Assembly (NCBI RefSeq): GCF_900105945.1
Contig: NZ_FNSO01000002.1
Coordinates: forward strand, 744,001-808,000
Direction of reading: 5' to 3'
Source of the DNA: Amycolatopsis tolypomycina
GTDB taxonomy: Bacteria; Actinomycetota; Actinomycetes; Mycobacteriales; Pseudonocardiaceae
Length of the DNA stretch: 64,000 nucleotides
Shown here: in pieces, positions 51,495-54,400 of the stretch
Layout of the letters: every line of letters starts with the position of its first letter
How positions within the stretch are numbered: position 1 is the stretch's first letter
Program-made: the position numbers and the translations under genes
Notes under the pieces: generated by a model
The model's database searches: none
What the model was told of the DNA's origin: nothing
The model's input: the letters and a program-made list of their open reading frames with translations, nothing else

Positions 51495-54400
51495 TCAGTG
51501 CACGACGTCGTCCACCGAGGGCGACTCGTTGCGGGACAGGTTGATGCCGAGGTTCGCCGCGGCGCGCTCGAGGTCCTCGTCGTCGGAGTCGCGCATCTCG
51601 ATCGCCGCACCGTCGCTGGAGAGCACCTCGACGTTGAGGCACAGCGACTGGAGCTCCTTGAGGAGCACCTTGAACGACTCCGGGATGCCCGGCTCGGGGA
51701 TGTTCTCCCCCTTGACGATGGCCTCGTACACCTTGACGCGGCCGACCACGTCGTCCGACTTGATCGTCAGCAGCTCCTGCAGCGTGTAGGCGGCGCCGTA
51801 CGCCTGCATCGCCCAGCACTCCATCTCACCGAAGCGCTGGCCACCGAACTGCGCCTTACCACCCAGCGGCTGCTGCGTGATCATCGAGTACGGACCGGTG
51901 GAGCGGGCGTGGATCTTGTCGTCGACCAGGTGGTGCAGCTTCAGGATGTACATGTAGCCGACGGACACCGGGTACGGGTACGGCTCGCCGGAGCGGCCGT
52001 CGAACAGGTTGGCCTTCCCGTTCTCCTTCACCATCCGCTCGCCGTCGCGGTTCGGCTTCGTGCTGGCGAGCAGCCCGGTGAGCTCCTCTTCCTTCGCACC
52101 GTCGAACACCGGGGTGGCGGTGTTCGTGCCGGGCTCGACGTCGCGGAGCTCGGGCGACAGGTTCTTCGCCCAGTCCGGGTCGCCCTCGATCGTCCAGCCC
52201 TGCGACGCCAGCCAGCCCAGGTGCAGCTCGAGGATCTGGCCGATGTTCATACGACGCGGCACACCGTGGGTGTTCAGGATGATGTCGACCGGGGTGCCGT
52301 CCTCCATGAACGGCATGTCCTCGACCGGCAGGATCTTGCCGATGACACCCTTGTTGCCGTGCCGGCCGGCGAGCTTGTCGCCCGGCTGGATCTTGCGCTT
52401 CTGGGCCACGTAGACGCGGACCAGCTCGTTGACGCCCGGGGGCAGCTCGTCGTCGTCCTCGCGGGAGAACACCCGGATGCCGATGACCTTGCCGGTCTCG
52501 CCGTGCGGCACCTTCAGCGAGGTGTCGCGGACTTCGCGGGCCTTCTCGCCGAAGATCGCGCGGAGCAGGCGCTCCTCCGGGGTCAGCTCGGTCTCGCCCT
52601 TCGGCGTGACCTTGCCGACCAGGATGTCGCCGTCGCGGACCTCGGCACCGATGCGGATGATGCCGCGCTCGTCGAGGTCGGCCAGGACCTCCTCGGAGAC
52701 GTTCGGGATGTCCCGGGTGATCTCCTCGGCGCCCAGCTTGGTGTCGCGGGCGTCGATCTCGTGCTCCTCGATGTGGATCGACGTCAGCACGTCGTCCTGC
52801 ACCAGGCGCTCGGAGAGGATGATCGCGTCCTCGTAGTTGTGGCCCTCCCACGGCATGACCGCGACCAGCAGGTTCTTGCCGAGGGCGACCTCACCGTTTT
52901 CGGTGGACGGGCCGTCGGCGATGACCTGACCGGCTTCGACCCGGTCGCCCTCGTTGACGATCGGGCGGTGGTTGAAGCAGGTGCCGTGGTTCGAGCGGCG
53001 GAACTTGTAGAGGCTGTAGGCCTTCCGCGTGCCGTCGTCGTGCATGACCGTGATGAGGTCGGCCGACAGCTCCTCGACCACGCCCGACTGCTCGGCGACC
53101 AGCATGTCGCCGGAGTCGATCGCGGCGCGCAGCTCCACGCCGGTGCCGACGTACGGCGCCTGGCTGCGGAGCAGCGGCACGGCCTGACGCTGCATGTTCG
53201 CGCCCATCAGCGCGCGGTTCGCGTCGTCGTGCTCGAGGAACGGGATCATCGCCGTCGCGATCGAGACCATCTGCCGCGGCGACACGTCCATGTAGTCGAT
53301 GTCGAGCGGGTCGATCAGCTCGACCTCGCCACCCTTGCGGCGGGCCATGACCCGGTCTTCGACGAAGTTGCCGTCGTCGTCGATCGGCGCGTTGGCCTGG
53401 GCCTTGACGTAGCGGTCTTCCTCGTCGGCCGTCAGGTAGTCGATCTGGTCGGTGACCCGGCCCTCGACGACCTTGCGGTACGGCGTCTCGATGAAGCCGA
53501 ACGGGTTGACCCGCGCGTAGGAGCAGAGCGAGCCGATCAGGCCGATGTTCGGGCCTTCCGGCGTCTCGATCGGGCACATCCGGCCGTAGTGCGACGGGTG
53601 GACGTCGCGGACCTCCATGCCGGCGCGCTCACGCGACAGACCACCCGGGCCCAGCGCGTTGAGGCGGCGCTTGTGGGTCAGGCCGTCGATCGGGTTCGTC
53701 TGCTGCATGAACTGCGACAGCTGCGAGGTGCCGAAGAACTCCTTGATCGCCGCGCCGATCGGGCGGATGTTGATCAGGGTCTGCGGGGTGATCGCCTCGA
53801 CGTCCTGCGTGGTCATGCGCTCGCGGACGACGCGCTCGGTGCGCGACAGGCCGACCCGGATCTGGTTCTGGATCAGCTCGCCGACGGTGCGGATGCGGCG
53901 GTTGCCGAAGTGGTCGATGTCGTCGGTCTCGACCGGGATCTCGGTGCCGTTCGCCGCGTCCATCTTGTCCTCGCCGGCGTGCAGCCGGACCAGGTACTCG
54001 ATGATCGTGACGATGTCCTCTTCGGTCAGCGTCCCGTTGTCGATCGGCGTCGACAGGCCCAGCTTCTTGTTGACCTTGTACCGGCCGACCTTGGCCAGGT
54101 CGTAGCGCTTCGCCTTGAAGAACAGGTTCTCCAGCAGGGTCTGCGCGCTCTCCTTCGTGGGCGGTTCGCCCGGGCGGAGCTTGCGGTAGATGTCGAGCAG
54201 CGCCTCGTCGGTGCCGGCGGTGTGGTCCTTCTCGAGGGTGGCCAGCAGCGTCTCCGAGAAGGAGAAGCGCTCGCGGATCGCCTCGGTGGTCCAGCCGAGC
54301 GCCTTCAGCAGCACGGTGACGGGCTGGCGGCGCTTGCGGTCGATGCGGACGCCGACGGTGTCGCGCTTGTCGACGTCGAACTCCAGCCAGGCACCCCGGC

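Follow-up and report, generated by a model that had tools for sequence, protein, structure and literature searches.

The single rpoB gene of Amycolatopsis tolypomycina lies beside a rifamycin-type cluster and probably encodes a self-resistant drug target

Amycolatopsis tolypomycina carries a rifamycin (rif)-type gene cluster directly upstream of its single housekeeping rpoB, and this rpoB is altered at known rifamycin resistance positions (Q516 and N531, E. coli numbering). We consider it probable (roughly 0.86) that the encoded subunit is a self-resistant drug target, and we infer resistance of the RNA polymerase from its residues and from their association with the cluster. Asn531 would replace a serine that contacts the drug and would crowd the pocket, so that the organism's product would leave its own RNA polymerase active. 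I453 probably makes N531 tolerable for the enzyme; the block Q516/T518/I521/D522, which is not producer specific, may add insensitivity; and a RifP-type MFS efflux gene in the cluster would form a second layer. The window, by which we mean the whole stretch of DNA analyzed, comprises 64,000 nucleotides (positions 744,001 to 808,000 of contig NZ_FNSO01000002.1, assembly GCF_900105945.1), and its relevant features are collected in Table 1.

Table 1. Features of the window around rpoB and the end of the rif-type cluster
Feature	Position in window	Strand	Basis or remark
rpoB, RNA polymerase beta subunit, 1167 aa, TTG start, producer-type rifamycin pocket	51495-54998	-	Open reading frame and translation, start codon, numbering
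rpoC	47495-51406	-	Translation; directly 3' of rpoB
Asn447 = E. coli 531, codon AAC	53658-53660	-	Ser in 63 + 2 of the 79 rpoB-matched Amycolatopsis genomes
Gln432 = E. coli 516, codon CAG	53703-53705	-	Translation
T518, codon ACG	53697-53699	-	Part of coupled block 53685-53705
I521, codon ATC	53688-53690	-	Part of coupled block 53685-53705
D522, codon GAC	53685-53687	-	Part of coupled block 53685-53705
Ile369 = 453 counted back from 531, codon ATC	53892-53894	-	Covaries with N531
LuxR-type regulator, RifZ-like, first gene on the cluster side	56320-57597	-	GerE domain; found in 11 of 80 Amycolatopsis genomes
Type II dehydroquinase, RifJ-like	58149-58679	-	PF01220, NCBIfam
Cytochrome P450 of the cluster	58688-60055	+	PF00067; position shared with nine other cluster genomes
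Insertion sequences inside the cluster end	60076-63323	.	Transposase domains; end of the shared stretch

Five residues, at 516, 518, 521, 522, and 531, set this pocket apart from the common Amycolatopsis pocket. The first-pass annotation had named Asn447 (531) and Gln432 (516), and both are present, encoded by AAC and CAG; of the further differences that it listed, those at 518, 521, and 522 stand (T518, I521, D522), and 523 is uninformative, with G in all pockets compared. This G523 presumably differs from the E. coli sequence. In the Amycolatopsis alignment, the stretch from 531 to 603, which includes cluster II, showed no further clade-specific difference, and RpoB has H at 526, the position of the H526N change of the duplicated-rpoB type. 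The number 453 assumes that no gap intervenes when counting back from 531 and was compared only with the E. coli sequence. The numbering pairs 432/516 and 447/531 match those reported for M. smegmatis and E. coli (PMC6175910).

The expectation of a rifamycin producer or close relative is borne out by the cluster itself, which lies immediately upstream of rpoB in the same genome. The gene rpoB is immediately downstream of the RifJ-like gene, with the RifZ-like gene between, and both the presence of the cluster and this arrangement are of the A. mediterranei type. Past the insertion sequences, a second contig, C1, runs on into the rest of the cluster; the contig of the window, C2, does not. Beyond the insertion sequences C1 encodes transketolase halves, a methyltransferase, a P450, a thioesterase, an FAD monooxygenase, and deoxysugar genes, and farther back TetR, MFS, HAD phosphatase, ROK kinase, AHBA synthase, DHQ synthase, and an N-acetyltransferase-type amide synthase. 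The AHBA synthase gave a full-length match to 1b9h, which we take to be the A. mediterranei protein, at 853.9 bits, like the 97% matches elsewhere in our AHBA synthase survey. The cluster also holds open frames as long as polyketide synthase genes, ~51 kb in total; one scanned gene contains KS, AT, DH, KR, and carrier domains, and the remaining polyketide synthase genes were assigned from length and motif. The rif gene names were assigned by family and order and, save those given in the papers cited, are what we take to be the established names. A genome search found no Arr, and the FAD monooxygenase of the cluster was rejected as a rifampin monooxygenase (147 bits versus a cutoff of 800); it scored 635 bits against a cutoff of 390 for the hydroxyphenylpropionate hydroxylase subfamily. 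Several transposase genes separate the cluster P450 from the transketolase genes, whereas in nine other matched cluster genomes the P450 and the transketolase genes lie close together.

The genome search found the rpoB domain at two places, one on C1 and one on C2, each no more than 17 kb from a contig end. C1:329680-348135 matches window positions 63323-44858 (~18.5 kb). Over window positions 63001-44858 the two copies differ by 0 substitutions and by 15 indels of 1 to 3 bases, 12 of which fall within the terminal 2.6 kb of C1; rpoB and rpoC contain none, and the C1 copy of rpoB has the same pocket. Because substitutions are absent and most indels lie near the contig end, we read the two places as one locus assembled twice at two draft contig ends. 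A second rpoB was therefore rejected, and the earlier description of this gene as the only rpoB holds after the search for another. Each of the 78 other Amycolatopsis genomes in which rpoB was matched has one place, including the single-contig carriers of the same pocket haplotype (G029, G055, and G065); G078 gave two places in a scan with a shorter query, and the contig that holds its place with the longer query breaks off within the gene. The doubly assembled 18.5 kb likely explains a contamination-like duplication of 1.82%. The two copies of this stretch part at the insertion sequence. Six substitutions between them, at window positions 63042-63317, lie within the insertion sequence, so a different insertion sequence copy may have misled the assembly; there may also be a real rearrangement or duplication at the contig join. 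The continuation of C2 beyond window position 63323 (7 kb with pyridoxamine oxidase, lipase, and UreD-type genes) was set aside as a true neighbor of the cluster end because 9 of 10 other cluster genomes have transketolase genes there; in G052, no transketolase gene matched at that position in the stretch fetched.

We compared the pocket across 80 Amycolatopsis genomes, our own included, of which 79 had an rpoB match (G063, which had none, was left out of the rpoB counts). The cluster I alignment with other members of the genus places the difference beyond chance, with 63 of the 79 carrying the common pocket and 12 exactly this full haplotype. The remaining pockets are Q516/T518/I521/D522 with S531 in two genomes (G005 and G064), N531 alone in one (G073), and Q526 with N531 in one (G028). 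A RifZ match was present in 11 of the 80 genomes, all among the 12 full-haplotype carriers. AHBA synthase was found in 20 of the 80, at 82 to 100% identity in the 11 RifZ genomes and at 69 to 76% in nine others, all of which have the common pocket. The full pocket is associated with rif-type clusters. No RifK match was found in the two other N531 carriers (G073 and G028) or in the two genomes that combine the block with S531, and the latter two had no RifZ match either. In an rpoB tree built without the pocket, from which G078 (partial gene) was left out, the 12 carriers form one clade with support of 1.0, so the association within the genus counts as one event. The twelfth carrier, G039 (L101), had neither a RifZ nor a RifK match in the genome search; its position inside the haplotype clade (support of 0.90) weakly suggests that it may have lost the cluster. 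G039 would be expected to be resistant while carrying no cluster. A search of a large protein set added seven further full-pocket proteins among 120. One of these seven, labeled A. ultiminotia (P0009), has the full pocket with I453 in an RpoB only 95% identical overall to ours, and two records labeled A. kentuckyensis disagree, L035 having the producer pocket and P0021 the common pocket.

The order in our genome is rplJ, rplL, an ABC/mce-like block, the cluster, and rpoB. Elsewhere the block is followed by rpoB within ~1.2 kb (G064 and G039, the block of G039 being uncut), with one extra frame between them (G068), or after ~6 kb with other frames (G005, for which our data cover only the later portion of the block). 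RifJ and RifZ lie beside rpoB on one contig in 9 of the 11 RifZ genomes, our own included. In the tenth, G051, they lie at a contig end, and rpoB is at the start of another contig. The last, G052 (L107 and L114), has the full pocket with rpoB after an uncut rplJL-block, and RifZ, RifJ, and the P450 are on another contig. Adjacency of the cluster to rpoB is dispensable, as this genome and a second family of rif-type genomes demonstrate.

We found this second family by searching 394 genomes of the class for AHBA synthase and then extending the search to 354 genomes in the family of the best outside hit, G484. The family appears to be Micromonosporaceae, since named Micromonospora records fall among its genomes in the rpoB tree. 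RifK at 86 to 89% identity (E at most 1e-205) was present in 7 of the 354 genomes, and all seven, the only genomes of this family in which RifZ was sought, encode a RifZ homolog at 63 to 66% on the same contig as RifK. Like our strain, all seven have N531, and six have I453 (G929 has L453); unlike it, all keep D516, the N/T518 type, and A522, and their rpoB is away from the cluster, by more than 0.5 Mb in the five genomes with both on one contig and on a different contig in the other two. Seven comparison genomes, picked by handle and thus not at random, and five named records (three Micromonospora, Plantactinospora, and Catellatospora) all have S531 and L453; one comparison genome, G585, encodes AHBA synthase at 73% and has S531. 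Residue 531 was read in these 7 rif-type genomes, 7 comparison genomes, and 5 named records. In a sparse tree the seven RifK genomes group together with support of 0.99 and are therefore counted as one further event.

We next consider which residues carry the signal, using 173 aligned sequences (27 N531 and 146 S531 rows, three duplicates included). This alignment omits L020, L035, L194, and L196, which represent the same genomes as G077, G023, G005, and G064, and keeps L021, L022, and L024 beside G038, G079, and G073; the tree-based count of residue changes omits G078, L021, L022, and L024. The sample is enriched for N531 and Q516, L193 to L210 being the best matches to a query with those residues; position 453 lay outside that query. 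Q516 occurs in 23 of the 173 rows and D522 in the same 23, never Q516 without D522, and all 8 Q516/D522 changes coincide on the tree; the pattern is as if an acidic residue had shifted from position 516 to position 522. Ten of these 23 rows have S531, two of them being the Amycolatopsis genomes without a RifZ or RifK match, and among 30 loci read from a family scan the block was found in nine genomes outside Amycolatopsis, eight of them with S531. The block alone does not mark a producer. Q516 was rejected as a producer mark, and the weight that the first-pass annotation gave it beside N531 as a sign of resistance does not survive as anything producer specific. N531, not Q516, looks like the producer signal: it recurs in rif-type genomes of two families, and it is found as well in G073 and G028, which have no RifK match. 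N531 deserves weight; the rest of the pocket is lineage specific.

Residue 453 follows residue 531. It is I in 24, L in 2, and V in 1 of the 27 N531 rows and L in all 146 S531 rows; with duplicates removed, 10 branches are inferred to gain N531, and each of the 8 inferred I453 gains maps to one of them. Within the set of 120 proteins, I453 accompanies N531 in 8 of 9 and L453 accompanies S531 in 111 of 111. The pairing is usual, not obligatory (exceptions are G929, G073, and G028), and I453 may compensate for N531. E. coli, we assume, has Ile at 453 together with Ser531. An E. coli scan reported that S531N confers resistance to higher rifampicin concentrations (PMC7073797), a replacement at 531 is reported for the naturally rifampin-resistant M. 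celatum (PMC3647647), and three RpoB residues have been reported as sufficient (PMC6804068). Neither the convergence on N531 nor the pairing of 453 with 531 was found in the open-access literature, the scope of our search.

The block has a separate history in G064 (L112), in which a foreign segment at codons ~440-860 carries Q516/D522 with S531. This genome groups with a clade containing A. orientalis over codons 20-430 and 760-1010; its codons 440-740 group with G005 and G386 with support of 0.96. Third positions in G064 differ from those of the nearest common-pocket genome by 12 to 15% in four of the five 60-codon intervals from 440 to 740 (2% in 500-560), by 8% in two intervals between 740 and 860, and by 0 to 5% in the other 13. 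Import of a central rpoB segment, seemingly from a donor outside our sample, is well supported by these groupings, and convergence alone is unlikely as the origin of the segment given the raised third-position divergence. At alignment positions 640, 655, 657, 690, and 732, the rif clade has the same residues as G005 and G064; the one at 640 is frequent in other genera too. For the rif clade itself, import of the central segment from a sampled donor is unsupported: each of the three segment trees keeps the clade next to its Amycolatopsis sisters, and its grouping does not switch between segments. In the central-segment tree its nearest grouping has support of only 0.67 and the next 0.99, and its stem is longer there (0.051 versus 0.034 and 0.009).

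Other explanations of the pocket have to be weighed against self-resistance of the single target. The pocket might have arisen first as a defense against rifamycins or other polymerase inhibitors of neighbors, with production later or incidental. Such a history would fit the occurrence of the Q516/D522 block beside S531 in G005 and G064 and in eight more genomes of the family, as it would N531 in G073 and G028, which lack RifK matches, and the imported segment of G064; we think it unlikely, since the full five-residue pocket is found, within the genus, in the 11 RifZ genomes and only one other, and a single clade gives no order of events. It is quite unlikely that the pocket marks a lineage but plays no decisive part, with protection coming through export or drug inactivation: the 12 carriers do form one clade in the genus, G039 does keep the pocket without a cluster match, and an MFS transporter and a TetR gene do lie within the cluster, but all 7 rif-type genomes of the second family have N531, E. 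coli becomes more resistant to rifampicin with S531N (PMC7073797), the genome search found no Arr, and the FAD monooxygenase of the cluster scores far below the rifampin monooxygenase cutoff. A sensitive second rpoB, with the resistant copy an accessory as in Nonomuraea, was suggested by the two places in the genome search and is highly improbable, because the two places overlap at contig ends, with 0 substitutions between them and an identical pocket, the rpoB of the window adjoins rpoC, and single-contig relatives have one place each.

Returning to self-resistance of the single target, we offer a broader scenario only tentatively, as a possibility with well under an even chance: that rifamycin makers of two families converged on N531, usually with I453 as an intragenic partner that makes Asn tolerable there, and that Amycolatopsis producers added the Q516/D522 block since their own products (rifamycin B and kanglemycins) still hit single-change enzymes, the block also occurring in rpoB of other lineages and having been imported in G064 at least. 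Both rifamycin B (PMC13404664) and kanglemycins (PMC6175910) are reported to act on single-change resistant enzymes, and we hypothesize that several pocket changes coexist for this reason.

Target-based self-resistance with rpoB beside rifJ is already published for A. mediterranei, and the present locus is another case of a known strategy. In A. mediterranei a rifamycin-resistant RpoB is reported to be encoded immediately downstream of rifJ-orf36-orf37 (PMC4551226), and the rpoB beside the rif cluster is believed to be the main self-resistance determinant (Floss and Yu 2005, cited in PMC4551226 and PMC7283461). The arrangement is shared with our strain, a rif-type cluster and a RifJ-like gene directly preceding an rpoB with an altered pocket; the species differs, and our AHBA synthase is close, not identical, to 1b9h. 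A. vancoresmycina NRRL B-24208, which has a kanglemycin-type cluster, shares the order cluster end, RifJ, RifZ, rpoB, and its RpoB is 100% identical to ours (99% for a record named A. kentuckyensis). However, our cluster proteins are 67 to 89% identical to those of A. vancoresmycina versus 73 to 97% to those of G029 and G065, and our cluster, unlike that of A. vancoresmycina, has insertion sequences before the P450. M. celatum (L052) likewise has N531 and I453 but the common residues at 516, 518, 521, and 522. The rpoB(R) gene of Nonomuraea gerenzanensis and rpoB2 of Nocardia also have pocket changes linked to rifamycin resistance; these are reported as second copies with H526N (PMC5431353), whereas the present genome has one rpoB, with H526. 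Raw sequence alone thus reveals a rif-type cluster together with an altered single RNA polymerase target. Four points can be tested: in two families it is residue 531, not 516, that distinguishes the rif-type genomes; the altered target may sit away from the cluster; enzymes with a natural N531 mostly have I453 as well; and in Amycolatopsis, clusters for rifamycin B and kanglemycin-type products are found together with several pocket changes. Genome miners may use the pocket to recognize producers and to explore which congeners are tolerated by a particular pocket.

Three minor observations remain. The RpoB of L079 (Nocardia anaemiae) has V513 and N526 and is presumably of the RpoB2 type. Between rpoB and the RifZ-like gene of the window lies a 62-bp tandem array of 4.8 copies (window positions 55710-56005), and near the start of the window, at positions 209-1603, is an EccD-type gene of a type VII secretion locus.
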